Below, one piece after another: positions 11,143 to 61,554 of a DNA stretch of 64,000 nucleotides. Below the pieces are notes generated by a model. It was given only the letters and a program-made list of their open reading frames with translations, was not told the origin of the DNA and did no database searches. The stretch spans positions 681,001 through 745,000 of the forward strand of contig NZ_AP024619.1 in assembly GCF_019668485.1 (NCBI RefSeq), read 5' to 3'. A program made the translations under genes and the position numbers. The number at the start of each line of letters is the position of its first letter. The first letter of the stretch is position 1. Source of the DNA: Gelria sp. Kuro-4. Lineage in GTDB: Bacteria; Bacillota; DTU030; DUMP01.

Positions 11143-11202
11143 CGAGTTCGTAACCATTCGTTACCTTTTACTAATTCTTCTGTAAGGGCTGGGGCATAGA
11201 AT
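11138..11202 (+). promoter_or_regulatory. Second phased TGTAA-type operator, upstream of the GerMN lipoprotein gene
   Basis: TGTAA (11138), CGTAA (11149), CGTTA (11159), ACTAA (11170) and TGTAA (11181) lie at spacings of 11, 10, 11 and 11. A -10-like TAGAAT (11197-11202) starts 11 bp after the last repeat, the same geometry as at 8461-8515. It begins inside the last codons of phoR. A hairpin (11211-11236) sits in the predicted leader before the ribosome binding site. Confidence 0.55.
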
Positions 11203-11255
11203 GGAGATGGAACGCCCGGCCGAGGCGTCGGGCGTTACAACAAGGAGGGAGACCC

Positions 11256-12323: not shown

Positions 12324-12424
12324 GCACCTCTAGGGACCGCAGAGCGCCCGAGGGGAACTCCCAAAGAGCCTGACCTCGGACTGGGAAAGAGGCGGGTAAG
12401 TCACAGGGAAAGGAGGCGGGTGCG

Positions 12425-14119
12425 GTGCGGCGGGGAACGAAGATCGCTCTGCTGGTTCTGGCCCTTGTTGCTGCAGCGGCCCTGGCCTGGGCGGGCGGGG
12501 CAGGCCGCCCGCACCCCGCCCCTTCTCCAGGTTCGCCGCCCGCCCCACCCGACGAGACAAAAACCGTCAAACTGAAGCTCCATTTTGTCTATAGCGGCAG
12601 CGACCACGTGGTGACCCGGGAAGTGCCGGCTACGCGGGCTGTGGCCCGGGCGGCGCTGCAAGAGCTCCTCAAGGGTTACCTGGGCACCGCAGGCGAAGTA
12701 AACGTGCTGCCGCCCGGTACCCAGCTCCGGGATATTGCCATCCTGGACGGCATCGCCTACGTGGACTTTTCGCGCGAGTTTCGGGACAACCACTGGGGTG
12801 GGGTGGCCAGCGAGGTCGATACCATCTATTCGGTGGTCAACACCCTGGGCGAGTTCCCCACGGTGCGGGGGGTGCAGTTTCTCCTGGAGGGAAGCCCGCT
12901 CCGGACCATCGGCGCCGGTGTCGTGGACCTGGCACAACCCCTGAAGCCGCGCCGCATCGCCCCATCCCTTTACACCCAACTGGCCGCCCGGCTGGTGGGT
13001 CCGGCGGCGCGCGCCCTGCCCTGGAATGCCTGGGTGAAAAGTGAAGAGCGCCTGGCGCTGCGTGAGGGTTTTCCCGACGCCCTGGCCTTGGGAGACACCG
13101 ACGGCGACGGTGCCGACGAGCTGGTGCTCACCGCCGGTAAGCGGGTCGGCATTTGGGACCGGGAAGCGGGCGGCTTCGCTAGCGTTTGGGAACGCAAGTT
13201 CAGTTCCGCGCCGCGGGTGGTCCTGGCCGCCACCCGCGCCGGCAGCCGTAAAGACCTGGTGGTTGCGGCGGAAGAAGGGATCTTCATCTTTGGCTGGGGC
13301 GGTGACGGGTACGTCCAGCTGGGCTGGCAGGGGGTATCGGGGAACATCCAGGACTTGGCCGTGGGCGATACCGATGGCAACGGGCGGGCGGAAATCCTGG
13401 CGCTCTTCGGCCGGGTGGATGGCGCCGGCGAAGAGCTGGCCGGCGGTCGCATTGTCATCTGGGAGTGGAACGGCGAGACGTACCTGCGCCGCCGTGAAGA
13501 GGCCTTTTCCTTCCTGCGCCTGCTGCCGGCCGACGTAAACGGCGACGGCCGCGATGAAATCCTGGCCTTTGCGCGCCGGGGCGTCACCGTGTTTGGGTGG
13601 CAGGGAGCGGCCTATGTGGAGCTGGGCAGCAACCCGGCCGCCGGGGGTGCGCTGGCTACGGTGCTGGCCGGCGATGTGAACGGCGACGGGCATGCCGACC
13701 TGGTGGTGCGCGACGAAGCGGCACCCTCCCTCTATGTGTATAGCTGGCAGAGGGGCGGGTTCAGCAAGCTGTGGCAGGGTCCGCCGGCCGGCGGGCAGGT
13801 ACTGGGGCGGGAGGCCTTCATTTGGCCCGCCGGCGGCGGTTACCCCACCCTGCTGGTGGCCGGCAACAACCCGGGCAGTTATGTCTTCTTGCGCGCTGCT
13901 GCGGATGGCTGGCAGCAACAGGGCCTGGTCGGGGCCAGCGGTGAGCAGGTGCTGGGCTTCGGGGATGTGGACGGCGACGGCGCGCCGGAGGTCATCTTCC
14001 GCCGCCACCAGCTCCTCTCCAATCCGGTGCAGTGGCTCTACATCGGCCGGCTCAGCTCGCTGTCCTGGCCGGCTCCTGCGCCGCAAGACAAGGCGAAAAC
14101 CCCGCCGGGGCGGCTGTGA
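12425..14119 (+). CDS. GerMN domain fused to FG-GAP/VCBS-like repeats, exported
   Basis: A 564-residue protein starting at GTG behind GGAAAGGAGG. It has a signal or anchor segment (IALLVLALVAAAALAWAGG), a GerMN domain (about residues 50-165, with IAYVDFSREFRDNHWGGVA) closely related to the second module of the preceding lipoprotein, and then a C-terminal array of Asp-rich repeats of the integrin-like FG-GAP/VCBS kind (LGDTDGDGADELVLTAG, VGDTDGNGRAEILALFG, DVNGDGRDEILAFARRG, DVNGDGHADLVVRDE, DVDGDGAPEVIFRR). These probably form a Ca2+-binding beta-propeller. The fusion is unusual to me. It is likely surface-exposed, in one run of exported proteins with its neighbours. Confidence 0.82.
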   Translation: MRRGTKIALLVLALVAAAALAWAGGAGRPHPAPSPGSPPAPPDETKTVKLKLHFVYSGSDHVVTREVPATRAVARAALQELLKGYLGTAGEVNVLPPGTQLRDIAILDGIAYVDFSREFRDNHWGGVASEVDTIYSVVNTLGEFPTVRGVQFLLEGSPLRTIGAGVVDLAQPLKPRRIAPSLYTQLAARLVGPAARALPWNAWVKSEERLALREGFPDALALGDTDGDGADELVLTAGKRVGIWDREAGGFASVWERKFSSAPRVVLAATRAGSRKDLVVAAEEGIFIFGWGGDGYVQLGWQGVSGNIQDLAVGDTDGNGRAEILALFGRVDGAGEELAGGRIVIWEWNGETYLRRREEAFSFLRLLPADVNGDGRDEILAFARRGVTVFGWQGAAYVELGSNPAAGGALATVLAGDVNGDGHADLVVRDEAAPSLYVYSWQRGGFSKLWQGPPAGGQVLGREAFIWPAGGGYPTLLVAGNNPGSYVFLRAAADGWQQQGLVGASGEQVLGFGDVDGDGAPEVIFRRHQLLSNPVQWLYIGRLSSLSWPAPAPQDKAKTPPGRL

Positions 14120-14215
14120 AGCCGGTCGAGTGGCGGGCGCAATACTTTGCGCGGTACGCAAGGTGTGTCGCCCACGTAAGAGCGAAGGCCAGAACTTATG
14201 AAGGAGGCCGGGTCC

Positions 14216-15316
14216 ATGCGTTTCATCTCTTGTCTGACAGTAACCCTGCTCCTTGTTGCACTTTCAGTCGGCGGCTGCAGCCTCGGGGCGGGATCGAAAC
14301 CGGAGGCGGCGCCCCCGCCGCCTGCCGCTGCGGCACCCCTCGACAGCGAGGGTTACGGCCGGGTGGAGCTTTTGGCTGCCTTAAGCGGGGAGCCCCTGAG
14401 CAACCCGGCCGGCGTGGCGGTTAACGCGGCCGGCGACCTCTATGTGAGCGATGCCGCCAAACAGGTGGTGCTGGAGTTCCCCGGCGGCGATCTCAAGGCA
14501 ACACCTAAGGTCATCGGCGGCGAAGGCGGCGGCCTGGGACAGTTCGTCCACCCGCGCGACCTGGCCGTGGACGGCGCCGGTAACCTCTACGTGCTGGACG
14601 ACGGCAATTCCCGGGTGGAAAAATTCAGCCCGGACGGCAAACCCCTGGCCCAGGTGGGCGGCAGGGACGAGTTCGCTCCTTACTTCAGCCTGCAGGACGG
14701 CTACGACGAGCCCTTGAGCGCCCTGGCCGTGGATAAAGACGGCAACATCTACGTCGGCGTGAGCGGCGCCAATTACGACATCTCGCCGCACGCTCTGGTG
14801 AAGTTCGCTCCGGACGGCCGTAAGGTGTGGGAGGTAAAGAGCACCCTGGAAGGCGACGTGGACGTGGCGCCCTTCGCCTGGCCGGACGCGCTGGCCGTGG
14901 GCCGGGACGGCACCGGGAAGGACGGCACCCTCTTCGTGGCCCACGGGGCCAACGGCACCGGCAAGATCCTCATCCTGCCGCAACGGGATGGGCAGGTGGA
15001 CAAGAAGGCTGCGCGCGACTTCGGCCCCATCGGCAAAGGCCCCGGCGAGCTCATGCACACCCCGGCGGGCATCGCCCTTACCGCCTCCGGCGACATCCTG
15101 GTGGCCGACACCTACAACAACCGCCTGCAGCTCTTCAGCGCGGATGAGAAGCTGAAGGCCATGTACCGCTTAAAGGGCCTGCCGACGGCGGAGTTCGATC
15201 AGCCCGGGCCCTTGGCCGTCGCGCCGGACGGCAGTGTGTACGTGGTGGACGCCGGCAACAAGCGTGTCCTCAAGCTGCGCCTGGTACCACCGACGGCCGA
15301 CACAGAGAAGAAATGA
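14216..15316 (+). CDS. NHL-repeat beta-propeller lipoprotein
   Basis: A 366-residue lipoprotein. ATG 14216 is preferred because AAGGAGG at 14201-14207 follows the earlier ATG. The lipobox is SVGGC. The rest is NHL-type propeller repeats such as NPAGVAVNAAGDLYVSD, HPRDLAVDGAGNLYVLDD, PLSALAVDKDGNIYVGV, TPAGIALTASGDILVADTYNNRLQLF and GPLAVAPDGSVYVVDAGNKRVLKL. Such propellers bind partners or carbohydrates; no enzymatic residues are recognisable. It lies between two other exported proteins in the same direction. Confidence 0.85.
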   Translation: MRFISCLTVTLLLVALSVGGCSLGAGSKPEAAPPPPAAAAPLDSEGYGRVELLAALSGEPLSNPAGVAVNAAGDLYVSDAAKQVVLEFPGGDLKATPKVIGGEGGGLGQFVHPRDLAVDGAGNLYVLDDGNSRVEKFSPDGKPLAQVGGRDEFAPYFSLQDGYDEPLSALAVDKDGNIYVGVSGANYDISPHALVKFAPDGRKVWEVKSTLEGDVDVAPFAWPDALAVGRDGTGKDGTLFVAHGANGTGKILILPQRDGQVDKKAARDFGPIGKGPGELMHTPAGIALTASGDILVADTYNNRLQLFSADEKLKAMYRLKGLPTAEFDQPGPLAVAPDGSVYVVDAGNKRVLKLRLVPPTADTEKK

Positions 15317-15368
15317 TTGAGCCTGCAACATGCTCTTTCGGATGACAGTCTAGGGGGAGGGGAATACC

Positions 15369-16256
15369 GTGACAATGAGAATAGTTTCCGGGCCGGCCGG
15401 GCGCGGGCTGATTCCCCGCTCCCTGCTGGCCGTCATCTGCTTCGGCCTCGTTCTGCTCCTGGTCTTTTGCCAGACCGGCTGGCTCAGGCCGCTCACCTAC
15501 CAGCTGGCCCGCGCCGCCGCCCAGGCCGACCTCCTGCACCGGGTTCGCAGCTGGCAGACCCTCACCGGCGAGCATTTCGTCGTGAAGTTCCTGCCCCAGG
15601 ATAGGGACGTTGCTCCCCTGGTACTGCAGGCCGCCGAAGCGGCGTACGCGCCGGTGACCAAAGATTTGGCCTACGCCCCGCCCGGCCGCACCACGGTGGT
15701 CATCTACCCCACCCGCAAGGAGCTTAACGCCAGCTTCGGTTGGTCGGCCCAGGAGAGCGCCATGGGGGTTTACTGGGGCGGTGCCATCCGTGTCCTTTCC
15801 CCCAAGGCCTGGGTGGAGGGCAAAGACCCGGCGGAGATCGGCCGGGTGTTCCTCACCATGGGGCCCATGGCGCATGAGTTCACCCACCTGGTGCTGGACT
15901 ACAAAACGTGCGGCAACTACCCGCGCTGGTTCAGCGAAGGCTTGGCGCAGTACGAAGAGCTGCGCCACGGCGGGGTCCTCTGGGACGACCCGGCGGCGGA
16001 CTTCACGGGCGAGCTCTACTCCCTGGCCGACCTGGAGCGCTTCAGCGACCTGCCCAACCAGAGCCTGGCCTACCGCCAGGCCCTCTCGCTGGTGCAGTAC
16101 CTGGCCGCCAGCCGCGGCGAAGCAGGCCTGAAAAAAATCATCGCCGCCCTCGGCGATGGCGCCGGCTTCCCTGAGGCCCTCGCCGCCGCGGGCATCACCT
16201 CGCCGGCGGCCTTGGCCGCCGGCTGGCAGACCTGGCTCGCGGGCGCGGGAAAGTAG
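15369..16256 (+). CDS. Membrane-anchored zinc peptidase (peptidase MA-like)
   Basis: A 295-residue protein whose N-terminal hydrophobic segment (LLAVICFGLVLLLVFCQTG) anchors it outside the membrane. The catalytic HExxH appears as AHEFTHLVLDY, followed about 20 residues on by a downstream glutamate in RWFSEGLAQYEE, the gluzincin layout of the peptidase MA superfamily. GTG 15369 has GGGGGAGG 8 bases upstream. The substrate is unknown. The terminator before walR follows it after 156 bp. Confidence 0.83.
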   Translation: MTMRIVSGPAGRGLIPRSLLAVICFGLVLLLVFCQTGWLRPLTYQLARAAAQADLLHRVRSWQTLTGEHFVVKFLPQDRDVAPLVLQAAEAAYAPVTKDLAYAPPGRTTVVIYPTRKELNASFGWSAQESAMGVYWGGAIRVLSPKAWVEGKDPAEIGRVFLTMGPMAHEFTHLVLDYKTCGNYPRWFSEGLAQYEELRHGGVLWDDPAADFTGELYSLADLERFSDLPNQSLAYRQALSLVQYLAASRGEAGLKKIIAALGDGAGFPEALAAAGITSPAALAAGWQTWLAGAGK

Positions 16257-16412
16257 CCGGGGTGCCTGACTGAGTAAATAAACCTATCCTCTGTTCGGCG
16301 CTGAAACCCGACCCCGACGGATAGCGCAGGCGGGCGAAGGCAAGCGGGGGCCGAAGGGTTCCCGGGCTGCAGATGGGCTTTTGAGAACAGCTGGTGAGGT
16401 GCCCGGAAGGAT

Positions 16413-49140: not shown

Positions 49141-49169
49141 TTTACAGCAGACGGTTGTGCGGTTATAAT
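49141..49169 (+). promoter_or_regulatory. Promoter of the cobalamin-riboswitch operon
   Basis: TTTACA (49141-49146), a 17-bp spacer and TATAAT (49164-49169), about 35 bp before the aptamer. Near-consensus sigma-A promoter. Confidence 0.8.
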
Positions 49170-49204
49170 TATGCTGATGGGGACAGCTCCCCAACACAAC
49201 CGAA

Positions 49205-49357
49205 TACCTCGCCCGGTGCACGCTGCTTAATAGGGAAACCGGTGCAAATCCGGTGCGGTCCCGCCACTGTAAGCGGTATGCCACCTGCCCACTGCCACTG
49301 GGAAACTGGGAAGGCGGGCAGGGTGAGCCGCAAGCCAGGAGACCTGCCGGCGAGGCG
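49205..49357 (+). ncRNA. Cobalamin riboswitch (aptamer)
   Basis: The conserved adenosylcobalamin element is clear: the GGGAA...CCGGTGCAAATCCGG core (49233-49253), GGTCCCGCCACTGTAAGC (49257-49274) and the B12 box GCCAGGAGACCTGCC (49334-49348). The closing stem pairs cctcgcc (49207-49213) with ggcgagg (49349-49355). The expression platform is the terminator at 49412-49448, so bound cobalamin should stop transcription of the genes that follow. This is the basis for assigning the operon to corrinoid uptake. Confidence 0.96.
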
Positions 49358-49395
49358 TAGCGACCTACTTCACGCGGATGAAGGAGGTGGAGCGC

Positions 49396-49428
49396 ATGTG
49401 CGCCGGAAGGTCAGCCCCACCAACGTGA
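49396..49428 (+). CDS. Possible 10-codon leader peptide in the riboswitch platform
   Basis: ATG TGC GCC GGA... ending TGA encodes MCAGRSAPPT, preceded by AAGGAGGTGG (49381-49390) at ideal distance. The frame runs over the 5' arm of the terminator and stops in its loop. A ribosome here could affect folding. It may equally be chance. Confidence 0.3.
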   Translation: MCAGRSAPPT

Positions 49429-49448
49429 GTAGGTGGGGCTGAGTTTTT
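49412..49448 (+). terminator. Riboswitch-controlled intrinsic terminator
   Basis: Perfect arms cagccccacc (49412-49421) and ggtggggctg (49432-49441), 10-nt loop, then TTTTT at 49444-49448. Confidence 0.88.
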
Positions 49449-49503
49449 ACCCCACCGCCCAGCACCTTTGTCTATTGCCTTACTTGGGAGGAGATGAGAA
49501 ACC

Positions 49504-52149
49504 GTGCGGCGACACCTTGCGCTCTTCGTGAGCCTCGCCCTGCTGCTCGCCCTGCTTCCGGCTCCCGGCCCGGCCCTGGCGGCCGCCCCAGGCATTCCTC
49601 AAGAGGGAGACAGGGGCTTTTTCTGGGACTCACCCGGCCAGAGCTGGGGCATCTATGCGACGACGCGCGCCCTCGATGCGCTGACTGCGCTGGCGGATGC
49701 CGGCGCCAGCGTGCCGGACCTGGTTTACCGCACCGCGGCGGCCCGGGACTACCTGCTGAACCAGGCCTCGGCCGGAGTGTGGACCGACCCCATGGCCGGG
49801 GACTGGGCCGCCTTGGCTGTGGCCAAGGCCGGCGGCGATGCGACCCGGCACCTGGCGGCCCTGGCGCAAAACCTCCGCGAAAAAGACTTCGCGGAAACTG
49901 ATAAGACAAAGTCCACTTTTGTCAAGACCACCGACCTCGCCCGTTCGCTTTTGGTAGCCCAGGCCGTTTATGGCTCTGACCCGGTGCTCAGCGGCTTCCT
50001 ATCCACGCTAACGGACAAGAATAGCCGGCCAGCGACCGCGGCCCTTACCGCCCGACAGGTGACAGAAGACGTCTATATTGGTGGGACAAGCTTCCCGGCG
50101 GTACGCTTTGGATTGGCCGACGTCGAGTCCGCCCAGGATGCCAACATCACCGCGTACAGCGTGCTGGCCCTCCATGCGGCCGGCCAAAGCTTGGGACCTG
50201 ACCTGGCGGCCCGGGTGGCACGCTGGTTCCTGGCGAGGGAGACGGGAGCGGCGGCGGGCACGCCGCAGGGCAGCTGGGGTACGGACTGGGGACCGGACGT
50301 GGACACCACGGCCGCCGTCCTGCGCGCCCTCAGCCTCCAGAGCGCCGAGGTCCAGGATGCTGATCTCAAGGCGGAGATCGCGGCGGCCAAAGAGCGTGCG
50401 CTGGATTACATCCGCGCCCAGCAGGGGAGCGACGGGACCATCAGCGCCTGGGGCAGTCCTTCGGCCTGTTCCACATCCGAAGCCATCTTGGGACTCTTGG
50501 CGTGGAATGAAGACCCGACCGGTTTCACCCAGGCGGGTAAGTCCCTTGTCGATGGGCTCTTGGCGCTCCAGCAGCTCAGCCCTTATGCTCCGGCCCCGCC
50601 GCCGGCGGCGCCCGCAAAGATTTCCGTAAGCCTCGAGGTGCGGGGTGAGGGTGAGGTCTTCTTTTCCGGTACAGTTGAGCTCGCTGCCGACGCGGCCACA
50701 CCGCTGGGTGCCTTGAGGGCGAGCGGCCTTACCTACAGCACGCGGGGCCAGTATGTCTGGAAGATTGAGGACCTGGCCGAGGAAGGAACGGCCGGCTGGA
50801 AGTATGCCGTCAACGGCTTCGTGCCTTCGGTCCCGGCCGATTCTTACCCGCTCCACGAAGGAGACGAAGTGGTTTGGTTCTACGCTTCAAGTTACCTGGA
50901 CACGGGCGGCTTCCGGGAAGACATACCGGTCGCGGAGCTTAAGCCGCCTGAAGTAGCGGAAGAAGTCAAAGCGGCCAGGGATAAGGCGGCGGCGCAGGCG
51001 GCGGCCGAGCTGGCCAAGGCGGCCGCGGACCCCGACTGGTCCCGTAGAGCCGCTACGCCCATCGAGCTCGTGCGCGGGGCGGTTCTTGACCTACCCGGGG
51101 CCGAGGCAACCGCTTTCAGCGACGAAGAGCTCAGCTACTGGCGCGATGTTCTTAGCCTGAACAAGGTGGATGCGGCGCAAAAGGTGAGCGCCGGCCGGGA
51201 GGCCAAGGTGGGCGATGAGCTGGGCGAGGTGACCCTCTCCATCCCGGCGGGCGCGCTGGAGAAGGATGAGACCATTACCATAAAGGAGAACGAGGGAAGC
51301 GACAAGCTGCCGCTCCCGCTCACCCACAAGCTCCTGAGCCACGTTTATAGCCTGGGGCCGGACGGCATAAGCTTTAAGGAGCCGGTGACTTTGGCCCTGA
51401 AGCTGATTGTCGGCGAAGATACGAGCGCTTCCGACTTGGTGCTGGCGTACTTTGACGGGGAGCGCCGGGTTTGGCGGCCGGTGCCGGCTGTACTGGACCG
51501 GGCCAACGGGCTGATCCTGGCCCGGCTCACGCACTTCAGCGATTACGCTGTGCTGAAACGGGTGGAGCTTCCGCCCAGCTTTCCGGATGTGGAAGAAGGC
51601 TGGGAGTGGGCCAAGGATTCCATTTCGCTCCTCGCCCTGAAAGGCGTCGTGAGCGGCAACCTGGTGGGCCTCTACGAACCGGAGCGGCCGGTTACGCGCG
51701 GCGAATTCGCCCGCTTCCTGGCCCGCACCCTGGACCTTAAGCCGGCTTCCGGCGTAGCCTTCCGCGACGTCCTCCCCGGTGCCTGGTACGAAAAGGACGT
51801 GGCGGCCTGTGCAGGCGCCGGGCTGTTCACCGGCGCCGGCGGTAAGTTTTATCCCGATGCCCCGCTCACCCGCGAACAGGCGGCGGTGATCCTGGCCCGC
51901 GCCCTGCCCCAGGGAGAAACGCCGGAGCCGACCTTTGCCGATCAAGACACGATCGCACCTTGGGCGCGCGCCGGCGTCGCCCGGGCGCAGGCGGCCGGGC
52001 TCATCCAGGGCATCGGGGCCGACACCTTCGCCCCCCACCTCCCCGTTTCCCGCGCCCAGGCCGCCGTTCTCCTCGTCCGCCTCTCCGGGGTCAGGTATCA
52101 ACTTATCAACTTGCCAGCAACTGGAAGTGGCGGGGCGGGTGCGCGGTAG
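49504..52149 (+). CDS. SLH-anchored intrinsic-factor/transcobalamin-like protein (alpha-barrel + DUF4430)
   Basis: An 881-residue secreted surface protein under cobalamin riboswitch control. Order: signal peptide (1-27); alpha/alpha-barrel with prenyltransferase/squalene-cyclase-like repeats (about 30-360; SWGIYATTRALDALTALADA, GTDWGPDVDTTAAVLRALSL, SACSTSEAILGLLAW); DUF4430 (about 373-464; GWKYAVNGFVPSVPADSYPL, GDEVVWFYASSY); an Ala-rich helix; a ZU5-like domain (565-680; GEVTLSIPAGALEKDETITI); three SLH repeats (693-743, 752-800, 810-860). The barrel plus DUF4430 pair is the architecture of eukaryotic intrinsic factor and transcobalamin. I infer corrinoid capture at the S-layer. The last ~20 residues (from SGVRYQLINL) are encoded by a REP-like element. 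GTG start, GGGAGGAG upstream at long spacing. Confidence 0.85.
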   Translation: MRRHLALFVSLALLLALLPAPGPALAAAPGIPQEGDRGFFWDSPGQSWGIYATTRALDALTALADAGASVPDLVYRTAAARDYLLNQASAGVWTDPMAGDWAALAVAKAGGDATRHLAALAQNLREKDFAETDKTKSTFVKTTDLARSLLVAQAVYGSDPVLSGFLSTLTDKNSRPATAALTARQVTEDVYIGGTSFPAVRFGLADVESAQDANITAYSVLALHAAGQSLGPDLAARVARWFLARETGAAAGTPQGSWGTDWGPDVDTTAAVLRALSLQSAEVQDADLKAEIAAAKERALDYIRAQQGSDGTISAWGSPSACSTSEAILGLLAWNEDPTGFTQAGKSLVDGLLALQQLSPYAPAPPPAAPAKISVSLEVRGEGEVFFSGTVELAADAATPLGALRASGLTYSTRGQYVWKIEDLAEEGTAGWKYAVNGFVPSVPADSYPLHEGDEVVWFYASSYLDTGGFREDIPVAELKPPEVAEEVKAARDKAAAQAAAELAKAAADPDWSRRAATPIELVRGAVLDLPGAEATAFSDEELSYWRDVLSLNKVDAAQKVSAGREAKVGDELGEVTLSIPAGALEKDETITIKENEGSDKLPLPLTHKLLSHVYSLGPDGISFKEPVTLALKLIVGEDTSASDLVLAYFDGERRVWRPVPAVLDRANGLILARLTHFSDYAVLKRVELPPSFPDVEEGWEWAKDSISLLALKGVVSGNLVGLYEPERPVTRGEFARFLARTLDLKPASGVAFRDVLPGAWYEKDVAACAGAGLFTGAGGKFYPDAPLTREQAAVILARALPQGETPEPTFADQDTIAPWARAGVARAQAAGLIQGIGADTFAPHLPVSRAQAAVLLVRLSGVRYQLINLPATGSGGAGAR
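52087..52104. repeat. REP/MITE-like half element inside the 3' end of the SLH gene
   Basis: ggggtcaggtatcaactt occurs here inside the reading frame and changes the C-terminus right after the third SLH repeat. Confidence 0.8.
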
Positions 52150-52263
52150 GGATCGGCCACCGCTGCGTGAACAGGCAGGAGAGCGCCGGGTATACGGGGA
52201 GAAGACGTGGCCCGCCGCTGAGGTACGGCTGCAGGAGAGAAGCTAGCGAAGGAGTTGAGCGCA

Positions 52264-53448
52264 ATGCCGAAAGCGTTACGCGTGCTGGCGTTTATCTTCC
52301 TCGTTACCCTGCTCCTTACACCGCTGGGGTGTCGGCGGGGGGCGCGCCCCGCCCCCCCGGCCGCGGGGGTAGAGGAGGTACGGCCGGCGCCGGCTGCGAC
52401 CGGCCCCGCCTCCGGCGGGACACAAGGAGAGAATGCGGTCCGGCCGGCGCCGCCGGCTCCCGCCTCACCGGGAAAACCCGGCGGCGAAGCGGCTGCGGCG
52501 GCCCGCCCGGCGGGGGGGACACCGCCGAAAGGTGCGGCGGGGCAGTCCGGAGACCGGCCGGTGCCGGAGCCGGTGCGGCCGGCCCGGCCGCCGGCAGGTA
52601 CGGCGGCGCTCTGGATCACGCGCGACTTCGGCGCCCGGGTGCTCAAGAGCCCCAACGTCAAACCGGTGGAAGGTGAGAAGGTGCTTGCCCTTCTCGGCCG
52701 CCAAGCGCAGCTCGAGACGGCTTACGGCGGGGGCTTTGTCACCAAGATCGACGGCTTGGGCGGCGGCCGGCCGGGCGAGGACTGGTTTTACTGGGTAAAT
52801 GGTATCCTCGCCGGCGTCGGTGCAGGTGACTTCCCGGCGCGCCCGGGCGACGTCATCTGGTGGGACTTCCACCCCTGGAACCGCACGGCCTTTCTCCCCG
52901 CCGTGGTAGGCGCTTATCCAGAGCCTTTCGTGCGCGGCTACACCGGTAAGGCTCCGGCGGCGCGGATCGTCTACAGCGCTCAGGCGGCCAAGGAAGCACA
53001 GGCGGCGGCCAAGGCCCTTGCCGCGGCCGGCGCGCCGGCGCCGGAGCTTGCCCCTTACGGCGATGCGTCCCTTATGAAGCGCGCTGCCCCCACCCTGCTC
53101 GTGGCCACCTGGCCGGAGGTAAGCGGGGATAAAGACCTGGCGGGGCTCCTCAAGAACTGGCGCCGTACCGGCCTCTACTTCCGATTTGACGGAGCGGGAC
53201 TTTCCCCCTTGCGCGCGGATGGGAGCGAGGGGGGCCGGTACGGTCCGGGAGCGGGTGTTATTGCCGCCACAGGGAGCGGCCCGGGCGACGTGAGTCCTCT
53301 CTGGCTGGTTCTAGGTACCGATGCCGCAGGCCTCAACCGGGCGGTGGCCCTCCTTACCCAGCGGCCGGGGCACCTCGCGCGGCGCGTGGGCGTGGTGGTC
53401 GCCCCGACCGGGGAAGTAATCCCCCTTCCGGCGGTGAAGGGGCCATGA
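52264..53448 (+). CDS. DUF4430 (transcobalamin beta-domain-like) lipoprotein
   Basis: A 394-residue lipoprotein: lipobox LTPLGC23, an 85-residue Pro/Ala/Gly linker, then DUF4430 (about 115-203; GEDWFYWVNGILAGVGAGDF, PGDVIWWDFHPW) and a C-terminal domain (205-394; GAYPEPFVRGYTGKAPAARI, PTLLVATWPEVSGDKDLAGL) that I do not recognise. The WxYxVNG core is shared with the preceding S-layer protein. ATG 52264 is placed by AAGGAG. It ends in an ATGA overlap with ecfT. I infer a membrane-proximal acceptor that passes the ligand to the ECF transporter. Confidence 0.85.
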   Translation: MPKALRVLAFIFLVTLLLTPLGCRRGARPAPPAAGVEEVRPAPAATGPASGGTQGENAVRPAPPAPASPGKPGGEAAAAARPAGGTPPKGAAGQSGDRPVPEPVRPARPPAGTAALWITRDFGARVLKSPNVKPVEGEKVLALLGRQAQLETAYGGGFVTKIDGLGGGRPGEDWFYWVNGILAGVGAGDFPARPGDVIWWDFHPWNRTAFLPAVVGAYPEPFVRGYTGKAPAARIVYSAQAAKEAQAAAKALAAAGAPAPELAPYGDASLMKRAAPTLLVATWPEVSGDKDLAGLLKNWRRTGLYFRFDGAGLSPLRADGSEGGRYGPGAGVIAATGSGPGDVSPLWLVLGTDAAGLNRAVALLTQRPGHLARRVGVVVAPTGEVIPLPAVKGP

Positions 53449-54353
53449 GGCGCGGCCGGGCAGCGCCGGCCGCTCCGGCCCTGCATCCAGTGAGTGCCCT
53501 CGCCCATGCCGGCGTGCTGGTGCTCTTTCTTCTTCTTTACACCCACCCGCTCTTTCTCCTGCTGCTGGCCCTCCTTCCCGGCCTCACCCTGGCGGCGCGC
53601 GGCGATGTCCGCGCCTGGCGGCGCCAGCTGGCCTGGGGTTCAACCTTCGCCCTTTTCATCATCGCTTTCAACGGCCTCCTGGGCGGGGTAGGGGCGACGG
53701 AGCTCCTCGGCTTTTCCCTGCCGCTTCTCGGCCGGCGCACGGTTTCCCTGGAGGGCCTGGTGTACGGTGGGGCCATGGCGCTCCGCCTGGCCGGCATCAT
53801 CGGGGCGTTCGCCTTACTCAGCCGGCTGGTGGACCTGGAACGACTCCTCTATTTTTCGCCCCTGGCCGGGCGCAGCAGCCTCACCGCCGCCCTCACCCTG
53901 GGCCTTATTCCCCGCCTAAACCGTTCAGCCCGCACTCTCCTTGAGGTCCAGGCCAGCCGCGGGGCCCCCCTGGCGGCGGGGGGCCTGCGCCGGGGCGTTC
54001 GAGCGGCGGGACCGCTCCTGGCCGCCCTCACCGAAACGGCGCTGGAGGACTCGCTGGACCTGGCCGAAGTGCTGACTGCGCGTGGCTACGGCAGCGGGCG
54101 GCCGACTCATTTCCGGCCGGAGCGCTGGCACCGGCGCGATGCCGTCGTTCTCCTCGGCACCGTCTTCGCCCTGGCTGTGGGGCTGGAAGGTGCGCGTACG
54201 GGTGCGGCTTCCTTTACGTACTATCCTGCGCTTGCGGCACCGGCTTGGGTTCGCTCCCTGCCGGTGCTGGCCGGTGTTCTCGGCGGGCTGACTATTCCGG
54301 CATTCATTTTTTGGGGGTGGCGGCGTTGCCGCTGGCTGCGTGTGAACATTTAA
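53445..54353 (+). CDS. ecfT: ECF transporter T component (EcfT/CbiQ family)
   Basis: A 302-residue membrane protein with six or so helices. The two cytoplasmic Ala-Arg-Gly coupling motifs that dock on the ATPases are present as QASRGAPL and LTARGYGSG. The ATG overlaps the stop of the lipoprotein gene. It links the S component to the ATPase encoded next. Confidence 0.92.
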   Translation: MRRGRAAPAAPALHPVSALAHAGVLVLFLLLYTHPLFLLLLALLPGLTLAARGDVRAWRRQLAWGSTFALFIIAFNGLLGGVGATELLGFSLPLLGRRTVSLEGLVYGGAMALRLAGIIGAFALLSRLVDLERLLYFSPLAGRSSLTAALTLGLIPRLNRSARTLLEVQASRGAPLAAGGLRRGVRAAGPLLAALTETALEDSLDLAEVLTARGYGSGRPTHFRPERWHRRDAVVLLGTVFALAVGLEGARTGAASFTYYPALAAPAWVRSLPVLAGVLGGLTIPAFIFWGWRRCRWLRVNI

Positions 54354-56032
54354 CCTACTTTTATCCGGGTGCTGCTGCCCCGGCGCTCCAAGCTGTCGAA
54401 CTCGCCGTGAACCCAGGCGAGTTTCTCCTCGTTCTAGGTGGCTCGGGCAGCGGCAAGTCCACGCTCCTTCGTTTCCTGGCGGGCCTGGCGCCGGATTTTT
54501 CCGGCGGGCGCGTGCGCGGGCGCGTGCTCCTGGGGGGGCGCGACATGGCGGGCATCCGGCGGCGGGAACTGGCGCGCCGCATCGGCTTTGTCTTCCAGGA
54601 TCCGGGCCGGAGCCTGCTCTTCCGTGACCTCGAGGCGGAGGTGGCCTTCGGGCTGGAGAACGCCGGCCTTCCCCCCGCGGAGATCCGCCGGCGCGTGGCC
54701 GAGACCATCAGCGCCCTGGGCCTGAGCGAGTACCGAGGCGTGCCTCTTCCCGAACTTTCCGGGGGCCTCAGGCAAAAGGTCACACTGGCGGCGGCCCTGG
54801 CGCTTAGGCCGGACCTGCTGCTTCTCGATGAGCCTACGGCCGAGCTCGACCCGGTGGCGGCGGTGGACTTCCTCCACGTGCTGAAGGACCTCAACGCGGA
54901 TTTTGGGCTTACCGTGGTCCTGGCCGAACAACGGGCCGACCGTTGCCTGCCCCTGGCCGACCGGGTGGTGGTGCTGGAAGCAGGCAGGATCGCGTGGCAG
55001 GGCCCGCCGCGGGCGCTCGCACGCTGGGCCTGGCCGGAGCGCGCCTGGCTGCTCCCGCCGGTGCCGCGGCTTTTCGCCGGCCTGAACGCGCCGGCGGCAC
55101 CGCTTACAGTAAAAGAAGGGAGAAAGGTGCTGAAGCTTCTTCCCGGCCTCAGCCGGGTGCTGCCGCCTCTCGCGGGCGAACGGAGCGAAGCGGCGGCCTC
55201 CCGGCCGGCGGCGCGGCCGGGGAGCCGGGGCGGCGGGCCGGCAGGACAGCCGGTGGCCGCGCTGGAACGCGTCCAGGTGGTCTACCCGGGCGGGGTGGAA
55301 GCCTTGCGCGAGGTGGACTTGACCCTGGCGGGCGGAGAACTGGTCTGCGTCCTGGGCGAAAACGGCGCCGGGAAGAGCACCCTGCTCCGGGTGCTGGCAG
55401 GGCTTACGCTCCCTACGCGCGGTCGGGCGCTGGTGCTGGGCCGGGACACGCGCCAGGCCAAAGCCGGGGTGCTGGCGCGCGGCGTCGGCTACCTGGCCCA
55501 GGACACTACGGCCTACCTGGTGGCGGACAGCGTGGCGGAAGAAGTAGCCGGCACCCTGGAAAACCTGGGGGAGGCGGATAACGGGCGCGTGGCCGCCGCT
55601 TTAGCGGCCTTTCACCTGGAGGCGGTGGCGGGGCGTAACCCGCGCGACCTCAGCCTGGGGCAGCGGAAGGCGGTGGCCCTGGCGGCCACCCTGGTGCGCG
55701 ATCCGGAGCTCATCCTTTTGGACGAGCCCACCCGCGGCCTCAGCGCCGACCGGCGGGAAGAGCTGGGGCAGGTGCTCCGGGGCCATGTCCGCGCCGGGCG
55801 GGCGGTGCTGGCTGTAACCCACGATGTGGAATTTGCCGCCCAGTGGGCGGACCGGATCATCTTTCTTTTCGGGGGCCAGGTGGCGGCGGACGGGCACCCG
55901 GCCACGGCCTTCGCCGCTTCGCCCTTTTATGCTCCCCAGATCCAGCAGCTCCTCGGCGACCTCTTTCCAGAGGCCATCGAGCCGGGGCAGGCGCACGAGA
56001 TCCTCAGCAGGGTGGTGGCCGGAAGTGCTTGA
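54326..56032 (+). CDS. Fused double ECF ATPase (EcfA1-EcfA2 in one chain)
   Basis: One polypeptide of about 568 residues with two ABC ATPase domains. Half 1: Walker A GGSGSGKST, signature ELSGGLRQKV, Walker B LLLLDEPTAELDP. Half 2: Walker A GENGAGKST, signature DLSLGQRKAV, Walker B LILLDEPTRGLS. The switch histidine is present in half 2 (AVTHDVEFA) but replaced by Gln in half 1 (VLAEQRADR), where ECF ATPases usually have His. The linker (about 265-335) is Arg/Gly/Pro-rich. TTG 54326 is chosen behind GGGGGTGG; GTG 54317 is possible. It overlaps ecfT by 28 bp and the S-component gene by 8 bp. Confidence 0.9.
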   Translation: MPLAACEHLTYFYPGAAAPALQAVELAVNPGEFLLVLGGSGSGKSTLLRFLAGLAPDFSGGRVRGRVLLGGRDMAGIRRRELARRIGFVFQDPGRSLLFRDLEAEVAFGLENAGLPPAEIRRRVAETISALGLSEYRGVPLPELSGGLRQKVTLAAALALRPDLLLLDEPTAELDPVAAVDFLHVLKDLNADFGLTVVLAEQRADRCLPLADRVVVLEAGRIAWQGPPRALARWAWPERAWLLPPVPRLFAGLNAPAAPLTVKEGRKVLKLLPGLSRVLPPLAGERSEAAASRPAARPGSRGGGPAGQPVAALERVQVVYPGGVEALREVDLTLAGGELVCVLGENGAGKSTLLRVLAGLTLPTRGRALVLGRDTRQAKAGVLARGVGYLAQDTTAYLVADSVAEEVAGTLENLGEADNGRVAAALAAFHLEAVAGRNPRDLSLGQRKAVALAATLVRDPELILLDEPTRGLSADRREELGQVLRGHVRAGRAVLAVTHDVEFAAQWADRIIFLFGGQVAADGHPATAFAASPFYAPQIQQLLGDLFPEAIEPGQAHEILSRVVAGSA

Positions 56033-56699
56033 ATACTTCCTTACCCTACCCTGGTCCCTGCTTTCTTTGGGCATCCTTCTCTCGGCGCTTTCGGTGTTTG
56101 TCTTCCTTTACGAGCGCCGGCGCGAGAGCCGCGAGGTACCGGTGGTGGCCGCCCTGGCGGCGCTGGCGGCGGCAGGGCGCATCCCCTTTGCGGCCATCCC
56201 CAGCGTCCAGCCCACCACCTACCTGGTGCTCCTCAGCGGGTTCGTCTTCGGCCCGGTGCCGGGCTTCACCGTAGGCGCCACGGCGGCACTGGCCTCAAAT
56301 TTTTTTCTCGGGCAGGGGCCCTGGACCCCCTGGCAGATGCTGGCCTGGGGCCTGGCCGGGGCGAGCGGCGGGTGGGTCGGCCGGGCCTGCCCGCGGGCGG
56401 GGGCGCGCACTCTCGCCGTGCTGGGCTTTTTCTGGGGTTACCTCTTCGGGGCCATCATGAACGTTTGGAACTGGCTCACGTACATGTACCCCCTCGATCT
56501 CACCACCTTCGCGGCCGTGGAGGCGACCGGGGTGTGGTTTGACACCCTGCACGCTGCGGGCAACGCTCTCCTGGCCCTCCTCCTCACCGACCGCCTGCTG
56601 CCGCGCCTGCTGCGCTTCCGCGCGCGGCTCAGGGTGGAGGTGCTCCGCGAGGCCCCGCCCAGCGCCGGCTCCGCGGCAGCGGGTCCAGGGGAAAAGTAG
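56025..56699 (+). CDS. ECF transporter S component, likely corrinoid-specific
   Basis: A 224-residue membrane protein with about six helices, starting at GTG. Landmarks: AAAGRIPFAAIPSVQPTTYL, SGFVFGPVPGFTVGATAALA, NFFLGQGPWTPWQMLAWGLA and GAIMNVWNWLTYM. The QGPWTPWQM segment is typical of S components found, as I recall, next to cobalamin riboswitches (CblT-like). Substrate choice (cobalamin, cobinamide or the lower-ligand base) cannot be settled from sequence. Confidence 0.85.
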   Translation: MLEYFLTLPWSLLSLGILLSALSVFVFLYERRRESREVPVVAALAALAAAGRIPFAAIPSVQPTTYLVLLSGFVFGPVPGFTVGATAALASNFFLGQGPWTPWQMLAWGLAGASGGWVGRACPRAGARTLAVLGFFWGYLFGAIMNVWNWLTYMYPLDLTTFAAVEATGVWFDTLHAAGNALLALLLTDRLLPRLLRFRARLRVEVLREAPPSAGSAAAGPGEK

Positions 56700-56742
56700 C
56701 CGCGTGCCCTGCGGGGCGCAAAAAGTGAAAGGAGAATCGTGC

Positions 56743-58212
56743 ATGCTGAGAACGCGGCAAAGCTTGAGGCGTATTCTTACGACCGCCCTGATCCTGCTCC
56801 TCATCTTGGCACCGGCCGCGCAGGCCGTTCCCGCGGGGGACGACGTGCCGGCGGCGGCCGCCCGCGGCGTGGCATACCTGCGCAGCGTACAGAACGCCGA
56901 CGGCGGTTTCCCCGCCCAACCGGGCGGCAAGAGCGACGGCCTGGTCACCGCCTGGGTGACCCTGGCCCTGCGCGCCCAGGGCGAAGATCCGGGCGGTGCC
57001 GCCTGGACGAAGGGCGGGAATACCCCGCTCACCTTCCTCTTGAACGATAAGGAACCCTGGGAGGCCACCACCGACTACGCCCGCATCACCCTTGCCGTGC
57101 TGGCGGCAGGGGGGAACCCGCACCGGGTGGGAGGGCGCGATCTTCCGGCGCTCATCGCTCTTCGCCAGCGGCCGGACGGCTCCTTCGGTACAGAGGCGGA
57201 AGAAGGGCTCATCAACGCCACAGTCTGGAGCGTGCTGGCGCTTGAAGCGGCCGCCGGCACTACCCCGCGCGCAGCGGCCGTGCGGACGTGGCTTCTTAAC
57301 CAGCAGAACGAAGACGGCGGCTTCGCTTATGCCGGCGGCCTGCCCAGCGACGTGGACAACACCGCGGCCGCCATCCAGGCTCTGGTGGCGCTCGGCGAGC
57401 GGGGCAGGCCGCTCGGCCGCGCCCTCGCCTTCCTGCGCCGGGCCCGGGCGGAAAACGGGGCCTGGACCGGCTTCGCCGGCGGCCCGAACGTGGCCAGCGC
57501 CGCCTGGGGCCTGCAGGCCCTGGCCGCCTCTGGCGAAGATCCCGCCGCACCGCCTTGGACAGTGAACGGGGCAGGGCCCCTGGCCTACGTGCTTTCCCTC
57601 CAGGAAAAAGACGGCTGCTTCACCTACACCCCGGGCGTGCGCTCGCAGCCCGTCTGGATGACGGCGCAGGCGCTGCTGGGGCTCTCCGGCCTGCCCTTCC
57701 CGGTGGCGGCCGGGTTCCGCGACGTGCCGCCCGGCGCGCCCTTGGCCCAAGCGGTGCATAAGCTCCTTAAGCGCAGGGCGGTCTCCGGCTACAGCGATTT
57801 CGCCTTCCACCCTGAAGATCCCCTCACGCGTGCTCAGTTTGCCAAGCTGCTGGTCCTCTCCCTCAGCGATGAAAAGGTGGATCCGGGCGCCGGGCCGCTT
57901 CCCGCCGCCTTCGCCGATGTCCCCGCCTGGGCCGTGCCCTACGTCAACGCTGCGGCGGCGCGCGAGCGCGGCTGGCTGCAAGGGGTGGCGCCCGGCCGCT
58001 TCGCTCCCGACGAGCCGGTGACCGGGGCGCAGGTGGCGGCGGTGCTGCTGCGCGCCACCGGGCGGGGCAGCGCCGTGCCGGTCACCAACCCGTGGTACGC
58101 CGGGTACGTGGCTGCCGCCCGGGACGCCGGGCTCCTCTGGGACGGTTTCTCCCCGCTCGCCCCGGCCACCCGCGCCCAGTGTGTCCAGGCCCTGGCGGCC
58201 CTGCTCCCCTGA
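56743..58212 (+). CDS. SLH-anchored alpha-barrel protein (intrinsic-factor alpha-domain-like)
   Basis: A 489-residue exported protein: signal peptide (1-28), prenyltransferase/squalene-cyclase-like repeats (about 35-320; AYLRSVQNADGGFPAQPGGK, WLLNQQNEDGGFAYAGGLPS, DVDNTAAAIQALVALGERGR) and SLH repeats (from FRDVPPGAPLAQAV; FADVPAWAVPYVNAAAARER; a third, YVAAARDAGLLWDGF). It has no DUF4430. ATG 56743 follows AAAGGAGA. With the barrel+DUF4430 protein and the DUF4430-only lipoprotein, the operon holds fused and separate versions of both intrinsic-factor-like domains. Confidence 0.86.
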   Translation: MLRTRQSLRRILTTALILLLILAPAAQAVPAGDDVPAAAARGVAYLRSVQNADGGFPAQPGGKSDGLVTAWVTLALRAQGEDPGGAAWTKGGNTPLTFLLNDKEPWEATTDYARITLAVLAAGGNPHRVGGRDLPALIALRQRPDGSFGTEAEEGLINATVWSVLALEAAAGTTPRAAAVRTWLLNQQNEDGGFAYAGGLPSDVDNTAAAIQALVALGERGRPLGRALAFLRRARAENGAWTGFAGGPNVASAAWGLQALAASGEDPAAPPWTVNGAGPLAYVLSLQEKDGCFTYTPGVRSQPVWMTAQALLGLSGLPFPVAAGFRDVPPGAPLAQAVHKLLKRRAVSGYSDFAFHPEDPLTRAQFAKLLVLSLSDEKVDPGAGPLPAAFADVPAWAVPYVNAAAARERGWLQGVAPGRFAPDEPVTGAQVAAVLLRATGRGSAVPVTNPWYAGYVAAARDAGLLWDGFSPLAPATRAQCVQALAALLP

Positions 58213-58290
58213 AGAATAAAAAGGAAATCCGCCGGGTTGAGAAGAATAGGTAGGGCGTAACACCACCACGAAGCACAAGGGGGAGCAGAC

Positions 58291-58944
58291 GTGGCACGTA
58301 CGCGCGTGTTTCTCATCCGCCACGGCGAGACCGAGTACAACCGCAGCGCCCGCATCCAGGGCCAGCTCGACGTAGAGCTCTCCGGCAAGGGGCGCCGGCA
58401 GGCGCAGCTTCTGGGCCGGCGCCTCGCGCACGAGGAAATCGCCGCCCTGTACGCCAGCGACCTGAAGCGGGCGCGCGAGACGGCGGAGATGATCTGCCGG
58501 GAGGCGGGCCTCAGCATCACCGGCTTCCGGGAAGACCTGCGCGAGATCAAGTTCGGCCGCTGGCAGGGGCACACCATGGCTGAGGTGGAGGAGCTTTACC
58601 CGGCGGACGTCGCCTTCTGGCGGGCCGACATCAGCCGCCACGCCCCGCCCGGGGGCGAGTCCTACGCGGCCATGCGCGAGCGCGGCTGGCGCGCTGTTAC
58701 CGAGTTGGCGGCGGCCCACCCGGGCGCGACGGTGGCCGTCGTCTCGCACGGCGGCATCGTCAAGGCCGTCCTCTGCACCGTACTCGGCATCGACCTCGCT
58801 GAGCGCCGCCGCGTCGTGGTCGACAACGCCTCCCTGAGCATCATCGAACTCACCTCCGAGGGCTGGCGCGTCCAAACCATGAACGACACCTGCCACCTGG
58901 GCGGCCTCACCAGCGCCATCAGCAAACCCTGGCCCGAAGCCTGA
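58291..58944 (+). CDS. cobC: Histidine phosphatase, CobC-like (alpha-ribazole phosphatase candidate)
   Basis: A 217-residue phosphoglycerate-mutase-fold phosphatase: catalytic His in FLIRHGETEYN, YASDLKRARETAE, REIKFGRWQGHTM and the second His in VVSHGGIVKA. Size and the EIxFGxWQG motif fit CobC, which removes phosphate in cobalamin lower-loop synthesis, and its place at the end of the riboswitch gene set supports this; other histidine phosphatases look similar. GTG start behind AAGGGGGAG. Confidence 0.78.
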   Translation: MARTRVFLIRHGETEYNRSARIQGQLDVELSGKGRRQAQLLGRRLAHEEIAALYASDLKRARETAEMICREAGLSITGFREDLREIKFGRWQGHTMAEVEELYPADVAFWRADISRHAPPGGESYAAMRERGWRAVTELAAAHPGATVAVVSHGGIVKAVLCTVLGIDLAERRRVVVDNASLSIIELTSEGWRVQTMNDTCHLGGLTSAISKPWPEA

Positions 58945-59036: not shown

Positions 59037-59162
59037 GCTCCGGTGTATTGCCCTGGAAAAAAACCGCTATGTGAATACAAGAAAATTGCCGCTACAATGA
59101 AGGGAAAATGTACCTTCATGCCGAATTAAGGCGGAGCAATTAACTATGCGGAGGTGGAACGC

Positions 59163-60524
59163 TTGACCTGCTCCAGGCGGTCGGCCTGGAGGGCTCCTGC
59201 CCTGGTTCTGGCCGTTTTTCTTGCCTTAGTTTTCCCTACGCCGGCGTTGGCGGCGGTCGAGTCGCTGGATTTCACCTTTACCGTGGCCGGCGCAGAGCCA
59301 CCGGTTTTCAGCTCCGACGAGCTGGCGGGCGGCGAGCTGGCTACCGGGGCGAACGACTTCACCCTCACCCTGTGCAACCCGGAGGCAGGTGAGGACTACG
59401 CCGCCCTCGCGGTACGGCTTGAGCTCAGCGGTGCGGGCGGCCGCGATGCGGTGCGGCTGGCCTGGGAGGAGACACCCGGGCAGTGGGTTGAGCTCAGCCT
59501 GGACCAGCAGGGGGACACCTTGGTCTCGGACCTCCTGCCGGCTGGTGCCCTGGTGCGCGGGGACATGCAGGCATTTCACCTGCGCCTTACCCTGGGCGGC
59601 AACCTGCGGGATGCAGCGCTTACCCTGACGGCTGCGGCCTACGACGCGAGCGGTGCGGCCCCGGCGGCCATCGCGGGGGCCGCGACACCTTTCAGCTTGG
59701 CCGTGAAGGGCCCGGCGACCACCCTGGGGCCTACGGTGCCGGACGGCAGCCCACCGGCTTTTGGTGTGGAACAAACCGTGGCCGTCGACTTTACCCTTGC
59801 GAACGCGGCCGCCGCCGGCTATGAAAACTTGGGGGTAAGGTTAACCCTCTCCGGCGTCCCGGCGGACGTTGCCCTTACCGGCCCGGAAGCCCTTACCTTG
59901 TCCATGGAAGCGGGAGGCGAGTGGGAAACGGTAGCCCTCACCCGGAGCGTAAACGGAGACATCGGCGCCGACCTGATACCCGCCGCCGGGCTGGCTCTGG
60001 CACCGGGCGCGCGCCTTACCCTACCGCTCAAGCTCAGGTGGCCGGCGGGCAGTGCCGGCACCTACAGCTGGGCGGCGACCATAGTAGCAAACCCCGGCGC
60101 GGCGGACGAATGGACCTTGGCCCGGGACGATTTGGGCAGCATTCAGGTATTGAGCGTGAACGTCACCTGTGTCCTGAGCGCCGACCGCCTGGATTTCGGC
60201 CTGGTGCCGGTGGGTACCTCCTGGTCCAACCCCGTCCAGGTGACCGTGACGAACACCGGCAACGTGGCAGAACAGTTTAACATTAAAGCGACGGCTGCGG
60301 CCGGCGCTTACCAGCCCGGCGAGGACTTCTACGTGCTAATGCGCTATGACAATGGCAGCCGCGAGTTGCTCCTTAACAGGAGCTTTCAACTGCTTTCCCA
60401 GCTGGAGCCGCTGGCTCCCGGCGCTTCCACAACCTTTGAGTTGAGACTCAGAGCCAAGGCTGGGGCCATGCCTCCCGGCACCTATCACTTTACCCTGGCG
60501 GTTGAATCCCAGCCGGCCGGTTGA
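59163..60524 (+). CDS. Secreted beta-sandwich protein, unknown function
   Basis: A 453-residue exported protein: signal peptide to about residue 31 (LVFPTPALAAVE), then repeated Ig-like/NEW3-type beta modules with alternating hydrophobic residues (VRLELSGAGGRDAVRLAW, VRLTLSGVPADVALTGPEAL, VQVTVTNTGNVAEQFNIKAT, RLRAKAGAMPPGTYHFTLAV). No anchor is visible. TTG 59163 is chosen because GGAGG at 59150-59154 overlaps the upstream GTG. It lies 37 bp before an SLH gene, probably cotranscribed, and may be held at the surface by that protein. Confidence 0.75.
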   Translation: MTCSRRSAWRAPALVLAVFLALVFPTPALAAVESLDFTFTVAGAEPPVFSSDELAGGELATGANDFTLTLCNPEAGEDYAALAVRLELSGAGGRDAVRLAWEETPGQWVELSLDQQGDTLVSDLLPAGALVRGDMQAFHLRLTLGGNLRDAALTLTAAAYDASGAAPAAIAGAATPFSLAVKGPATTLGPTVPDGSPPAFGVEQTVAVDFTLANAAAAGYENLGVRLTLSGVPADVALTGPEALTLSMEAGGEWETVALTRSVNGDIGADLIPAAGLALAPGARLTLPLKLRWPAGSAGTYSWAATIVANPGAADEWTLARDDLGSIQVLSVNVTCVLSADRLDFGLVPVGTSWSNPVQVTVTNTGNVAEQFNIKATAAAGAYQPGEDFYVLMRYDNGSRELLLNRSFQLLSQLEPLAPGASTTFELRLRAKAGAMPPGTYHFTLAVESQPAG

Positions 60525-60561
60525 GCGGAGACATGGAACAAAAAAGAAGGGGGAGGGTGGC

Positions 60562-61554
60562 GTGCGCTGGAGCCGCATGGCTGTGCCGCGTCTTCTGGCC
60601 GGGAGACGGGGCAGGGGCTGCTTGGCTTTTCCGTGTGCCGCTGCTGTGGTTATAGCTCTGGCAACGTTCAGCCGCTGTCCGGCGACCGGCCGGGTGAGTG
60701 TCTGCCACGCAGCGCCCTGGGCCGGGGGGCCGCCGGCGGCTTCGCTCCCGCGGGGCGAGGCCGGCCTGACGTTCACCTTCCGCGTGGGACCGGCCCCGGA
60801 AACGGGGACAGGTGGCACATCCCGGCGCACGGACGAGGCCCGGCCGGGCACGGCCCGCGTACTGGAGCCTCCCGCGGCAGGCGCTTTGGCCCTGGTTGGC
60901 TCCGACCTCAGCGGCCACTGGGCGCGGGGCGCGGTGGCTGCGCTGGCCGGCCGCATCGACCTGGGGCTGGGAGCAGGCGGCCGGTTTTTCCCGGAAAGGC
61001 CCCTCACCCGATCTGAGTTCATCGCCTGGCTGGGACAGCTCTTCATTGCGCCCGGCGGCGTCCTGGGAACGCCCCCGGCGGAGAGCGGGCCCAACCCGGG
61101 CGGGGGCGCGGACGCCTTTTTCCGCGATGTGCCGACCGGGGCGCCCTATGCACCTTATCTGCGCGCCCTGGCCGCGCACAGCCTGGTACAGGGGGAGGGA
61201 TCCCGGCGCTTTGCCCCCGCGCGGCCGCTGACGCGTCTCGAGCTCATGGTGGTGGCCGGTCGGCTGCTGGGGCGGGCCGGGGGCGCCCCGGAAACGGCGG
61301 CGGCCGCGGCGGAGGCAGTGCCCCCTGCCGCTGGCGCCGGCGGGAACACCTTCCCGCTCTGGGCGAAATACAAAGACGGCGCCCAGGTACCTGCCTGGGC
61401 GCGTGCCGAGGTGGAAGCGGCCTTGGCCGCCGGCGTCATTCGGGGCCGGCCGGGGGGCCTGCTGGCACCCCGGGCACCGGCCACCCGCGCGGAAGCCGTG
61501 GCCGTTCTCTTCCGGGTGGGAAGCGCACTTTTACGCCTTACTAACGCACGGTGA
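60562..61554 (+). CDS. SLH-repeat surface protein
   Basis: A 330-residue protein with an N-terminal hydrophobic export segment (FPCAAAVVIALATFSRC), a disordered Gly/Arg/Pro stretch, then three SLH-type repeats (SDLSGHWARGAVAALAGRID; RDVPTGAPYAPYLRALAAHS; AQVPAWARAEVEAALAAGVI). No other domain, so it may be an S-layer linker or scaffold. GTG 60562 follows GGGGGAGGG. Its end overlaps the convergent glycosidase gene by 14 bp. Confidence 0.78.
   Translation: MRWSRMAVPRLLAGRRGRGCLAFPCAAAVVIALATFSRCPATGRVSVCHAAPWAGGPPAASLPRGEAGLTFTFRVGPAPETGTGGTSRRTDEARPGTARVLEPPAAGALALVGSDLSGHWARGAVAALAGRIDLGLGAGGRFFPERPLTRSEFIAWLGQLFIAPGGVLGTPPAESGPNPGGGADAFFRDVPTGAPYAPYLRALAAHSLVQGEGSRRFAPARPLTRLELMVVAGRLLGRAGGAPETAAAAAEAVPPAAGAGGNTFPLWAKYKDGAQVPAWARAEVEAALAAGVIRGRPGGLLAPRAPATRAEAVAVLFRVGSALLRLTNAR

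Follow-up and report, generated by a model that had tools for sequence, protein, structure and literature searches.

A cobalamin-riboswitch-controlled operon of Gelria sp. Kuro-4 predicted to scavenge corrinoids through carrier-like surface proteins and an ECF transporter

The window analysed here is a 64,000-nucleotide stretch of the Gelria sp. Kuro-4 genome (assembly GCF_019668485.1, contig NZ_AP024619.1, positions 681,001 to 745,000). It carries an operon (Table 1) that is very probably a cobalamin-riboswitch-controlled corrinoid scavenging system: a surface protein would capture the corrinoid, a DUF4430 protein would hand it over and an energy-coupling factor (ECF) transporter with a CbrT-type S component would import it. 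Genes and their products are referred to by the first coordinate of the gene.

The first gene, 49504, encodes a signal peptide, an alpha/alpha toroid (residues ~28-370) and a DUF4430 domain of the soluble-ligand-binding beta-grasp (SLBB) type (residues 377-467), followed in the C-terminal part by a ZU5 domain (residues 575-633) and three SLH domains (residues ~692-859). In Pfam, DUF4430 (PF14478) scored 40.5 bits, above the cut-off, and a squalene-cyclase-like barrel was found below threshold. We modelled residues 25-472 with AlphaFold2 on an alignment of 58 sequences that included relatives from other genomes (mean predicted local distance difference test score, pLDDT, 86.8; predicted template modelling score, pTM, 0.79). 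When the model was compared with the whole PDB, the 15 best matches were B12 carriers throughout: transcobalamin, haptocorrin and intrinsic factor (E 9e-9 to 2.6e-7). The beta domain superposed on human transcobalamin (5no0) with a template modelling (TM) score of 0.74 by target length and 2.1 Å, and on 3u7z from Ruminococcus gnavus with a TM score of 0.71. The original prediction, made from the sequence of this DNA, had likened the fused barrel and DUF4430 domain to the animal B12 carriers and proposed a structural comparison; the animal carriers are indeed the top matches, and the DUF4430 region does superpose on the transcobalamin beta domain. The resemblance lies in the fold and in the order of toroid and DUF4430-type beta domain; sequence identity is ~11-16%, and an SLH anchor and an ABC-type importer stand here where the animal proteins have receptor endocytosis.

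Upstream of 49504 lie a near-consensus promoter and a cobalamin riboswitch, both as originally predicted. The 112.2-bit riboswitch match (RF00174 gathering score, 31.5 bits) covers model positions 1-189, the full-length aptamer, and is the sole Rfam match in the window. A hairpin followed by a U tract, which we read straight from the sequence and which the consensus scan that gave the promoter had missed, may serve as a transcription-attenuation platform.

The operon also encodes a complete ECF set, with EcfT, two EcfA domains in one chain and an S component; Pfam confirmed all three genes named in the original prediction. The S component, 56025, had a single PDB sequence match, 6fnp_A (E 5.4e-7), and no other solved S component was matched. 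6FNP is ECF-CbrT of Lactobacillus delbrueckii, for which transport of cobalamin and cobinamide, without competition by hemin, has been shown (PMC5997447). The assignment of 56025 as a CbrT-type (B12) S component is supported by this match. The two systems share a homologous S component, an ECF module and linked B12 genes, but differ in that L. delbrueckii uses a shared (group II) ECF module (PMC5997447) whereas the Gelria module is dedicated, encoded in the operon and has a fused EcfA. The Gelria operon also differs in encoding extracellular toroid and DUF4430 proteins.

We wondered whether this arrangement recurs, as the original prediction had proposed to survey. A sample of 300 genomes of the phylum contained 92 with DUF4430. 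Neighbourhoods of up to 20 kb around DUF4430 were taken from 59 of the 92, chosen regardless of riboswitches, and with the window gave 60 loci. A CbrT-like gene was present in 53/60 and EcfT in 50/60. Of 56 assessable loci, 38 had a same-strand B12 box no more than 1.2 kb upstream (chance level: 3 matches in ~1.2 Mb of shuffled sequence). An Rfam scan (cmscan) of the box-negative loci revealed a riboswitch directly upstream in 11 more (L050, L052, L064, L069, L073, L079, L084, L085, L091, L099 and L100), for a total of 49/56. The linkage of DUF4430 to cobalamin riboswitches therefore recurs strongly. Neither this survey nor the fold comparison, the two tests by which the original prediction had offered to be refuted, went against it. 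Another set, which shares some of its 79 named loci with the first and comes from organisms that include Moorella, Desulfofundulus, Pelotomaculum, Thermosediminibacter and Paenibacillus, showed the same pattern (B12 box alone, 41/64 assessable).

The order riboswitch, toroid+DUF4430, DUF4430, EcfT, fused EcfA, CbrT was repeated in dozens of loci across the two collections, with a toroid-only gene present in some and absent from others. SLH domains occurred on 44 of the 47 fused proteins of the phylum sample. In L047, L057 and L076, which lack SLH and toroid, DUF4430 was still accompanied by CbrT. The minimal locus, L057, consists of a B12 box, DUF4430, a CbrT-like S component (E 4e-20 to 6fnp) and a cobalamin adenosyltransferase (PF01923).

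Table 1. Features of the corrinoid operon, with positions in the window
Feature	Position	Strand	Evidence
Sigma-70-type promoter TTTACA-17-TATAAT	49141..49169	+	11/12 consensus matches; 0.1 expected in shuffles
Cobalamin riboswitch aptamer RF00174	49196..49365	+	112.2 bits, E 2.6e-27
Riboswitch B12 box AGCCAGGAGACCTGCC	49333-49348	+	Part of RF00174 aptamer
Putative expression platform: 11-bp GC-rich hairpin + TTTTT, intrinsic-terminator-like	49411..49448	+	-31.9 kcal/mol, z -4.2
SLH-anchored two-domain corrinoid-binder candidate	49504..52149	+	Pfam, AlphaFold2 model, PDB fold search
Membrane-tethered DUF4430 protein	52264..53448	+	Pfam DUF4430, 44.2 bits
EcfT (CbiQ-type) transmembrane coupling protein	53445..54353	+	Pfam PF02361
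Fused EcfA-EcfA' ATPase	54317..56032	+	Two ABC domains, Pfam
CbrT-like ECF S component, GTG start	56025..56699	+	Pfam and PDB sequence match
Secreted alpha6/alpha6 toroid (12 helices) with C-terminal SLH domains	56743..58212	+	Pfam prenyltransferase/squalene-cyclase barrel and SLH; model
Histidine phosphatase, possible alpha-ribazole phosphatase (CobC-like, sub-cut-off)	58291..58944	+	Pfam, TIGR03162

The small protein 52264 carries its DUF4430 domain at ~52603-52902, together with a Pro-rich linker; no Pfam family matched its C-terminal part. It had been called a DUF4430 lipoprotein, of which the DUF4430 part holds. The Cys at the end of the signal peptide lies in the box TPLGC, whose Pro at -3 departs from the standard lipobox pattern. 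The same Cys is retained in two relatives (L102 and L103). Relatives of the small protein start with a hydrophobic helix, which bears a lipobox in some and is a plain N-terminal membrane anchor in many.

From the promoter, riboswitch, domain content, two-domain fold, CbrT similarity and gene-set recurrence, all computed directly, we infer how the operon may work. At low intracellular B12, attenuation at the hairpin would be relieved and the operon transcribed; B12 would switch it off. The 49504 protein, which its SLH domains would fix to the S-layer, would bind a corrinoid between toroid and beta-grasp domain, like transcobalamin and intrinsic factor. The membrane-tethered 52264 protein would take up the corrinoid or present it to the S component, which would import it with EcfT and the fused EcfA. 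The toroid-only protein 56743 may be an accessory surface partner. Because DUF4430 stays beside CbrT in the toroid-free loci L047, L057 and L076, we rank the DUF4430-to-CbrT contact as the likely core step, to which the toroid proteins would add an extra capture layer. A wall-spanning relay is conceivable but doubtful: 49504 would capture B12, and the toroid of 56743 and the DUF4430 domain of 52264 would form a split carrier that transiently closes on B12 and passes it to CbrT. If true, an ECF transporter would gain extracellular capture partners normally thought unneeded.

Pfam confirmed 56743 as an SLH-anchored barrel-only protein, but the claim that its barrel is a transcobalamin-like alpha domain was not borne out. 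The model is a confident 12-helix toroid (pLDDT 92.5). Squalene-hopene cyclase and further type II terpene cyclases head its PDB matches, the top 50 of which include no B12 carrier. These matches would fit a reading in which the barrels, at least the SLH-bearing barrel-only ones, are surface enzymes (terpene-cyclase-like or glycan-active) while only DUF4430 and the ECF transporter handle B12, as would toroid-free minimal loci such as L057 and the presence of the catalytic DxDD motif in 9 of 34 barrel-only rows of our alignments. We consider this improbable. The window proteins lack the motif and have DVDT and, in 56743, DVDN instead; it was found in 0/58 fused-toroid rows. These proteins are secreted and carry SLH anchors, and they are linked to a riboswitch; moreover, toroid and beta domain follow each other in 49504 in the transcobalamin order and together retrieve the B12 carriers. 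A terpene-cyclase identity is thus disfavoured by the loss of DxDD, though it may still apply to barrel-only relatives, in which the retained motif could reflect ancestry or residual enzymes. Separately, 56743 matches the NCBIfam family SCO2321_fam with 96 bits (cut-off 300), which hints at a Streptomyces counterpart of the barrel.

Several observations weigh against corrinoid scavenging by this operon. The whole-model TM scores of 49504 to the B12 carriers are just 0.25-0.42 (root-mean-square deviation 11-13 Å), so that the mutual orientation of toroid and beta domain is not confirmed. Transcobalamin was not recovered when the PDB sequences were searched with HMMER profiles of the DUF4430 and toroid regions; the link was found by fold comparison alone. 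The toroid also resembles terpene cyclases and GH76. In Patescibacteria (L124, L125 and L161) and archaea (L151, L152, L166, L167, L172 and L176), toroid and DUF4430 are fused or adjacent without CbrT or a B12 box. Since these relatives lack the transporter and the riboswitch, the domain pair alone is no proof of a B12 role; they may have a different ligand or a different transporter.

The genome also has a B12 uptake system of its own besides the operon, which counts on the same side. A second cobalamin riboswitch operon (L042, G000:C1:620001-640000, 9693-16270, minus strand), which has no DUF4430, encodes BtuF, BtuC, a BtuD::CobU fusion (ABC ATPase and cobinamide kinase in one chain), CobS and CobQ. 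Like the scavenging operon, it would serve B12 uptake under a cobalamin riboswitch, but its binding protein and permease belong to unrelated families (PF01497 and FecCD). The B12 users of the genome include methylmalonyl-CoA mutase, together with MeaB, and a MetH-like protein. Neither CbiD nor CbiC occurs in the complete one-contig genome, and Gelria sp. Kuro-4 therefore probably salvages corrinoids.

The last gene in Table 1, 58291, had been described as a CobC-like phosphatase. It does encode a histidine phosphatase, but its score against TIGR03162 (CobC) is 151.5, below the cut-off of 162.9. A similar histidine phosphatase elsewhere in the genome (G000:C1:896315-896851) reaches 146.8 bits, and we do not regard 58291 as an established CobC. 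Its linkage to the operon is confined to the genus. Directly downstream on the same strand lie genes for a secreted protein that weakly matches choice-of-anchor-D (59154-60524) and for another SLH protein (60502-61554).

Could the operon import something related to B12 but not an intact cobamide, for example only cobinamide, alpha-ribazole or dimethylbenzimidazole, or cobalt? CobQ, CobU and CobS serve the salvage of incomplete corrinoids, and the separate BtuFCD could take cobalamin. The DUF4430-like fold 3u7z is annotated as a putative metal-binding protein, and 58291 resembles alpha-ribazole phosphatase. Yet CbrT, the one solved S component that 56025 matches, accepts both cobalamin and cobinamide, with hemin no competitor (PMC5997447); the fold of 49504 matches carriers of whole B12; and a cobalamin adenosyltransferase gene belongs to the minimal operon L057. 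We therefore hold such a substrate to be unlikely. That the SLH proteins are ordinary S-layer or structural proteins co-transcribed with the importer by chance is scarcely credible: SLH domains are common in the region (60502 has them too), but in most loci, which come from many families, the riboswitch is followed first by the toroid+DUF4430 gene, and loci without SLH and toroid still combine DUF4430 with CbrT.

The scavenging system that we favour was foreseen in part. Burroughs et al. (2007) defined a transcobalamin-like clade of the SLBB superfamily (PMC1796856). As set out in its passages on this clade, the proteins are secreted in Gram-positive bacteria, carry toroid fusions on either side of the SLBB domain (Desulfotomaculum, Bacillus; N-terminal in a Desulfotomaculum example), occur as paralogous pairs and lie in operons with CbiO/CbiQ genes; B12 scavenging was predicted, and transfer from Gram-positive bacteria to animals proposed (PMC1796856). 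The window operon fits this clade in its toroid fusion, second SLBB paralogue and CbiO/CbiQ genes; a further mark of the clade would be a beta-hairpin insert whose hydrophobic residue stacks on the base of B12. A riboswitch, CbrT and SLH anchoring go unmentioned in the same passages and are present here. New relative to 2007 are the quantified riboswitch linkage, the S component as CbrT, the SLH display, the model-based structure and the CbiD comparison. The last concerns the statement, in those passages, that bacteria with such proteins are usually without B12 synthesis genes (PMC1796856). CbiD was present in 32 of the 53 genomes with a CbrT-linked locus, at odds with that statement. We also rejected the locus as a marker of B12 auxotrophs: CbiD was found in 47/92 DUF4430-positive versus 82/208 DUF4430-negative genomes (Fisher p 0.08).

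Capture of B12 at the surface ahead of a transporter has also been described for Bacteroides surface lipoproteins (PMC6143338). Theirs is a Gram-negative outer-membrane system. The original prediction knew of no characterised bacterial system of the present type. We likewise found no experimental characterisation in the literature searched, where absence is no proof; the implied novelty was overstated, a system of this kind having been predicted in 2007 (PMC1796856). Taken together, the results make the window operon a well-supported instance of a predicted, apparently experimentally uncharacterised system.

Confirmation of corrinoid binding would mean that a widespread uptake system of Gram-positive bacteria uses relatives of intrinsic factor as functional corrinoid receptors. 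It would also give DUF4430 a function, and the operon would show how ECF importers acquire surface capture. The 2007 proposal that the animal B12 carriers came from Gram-positive bacteria would then become biochemically testable.

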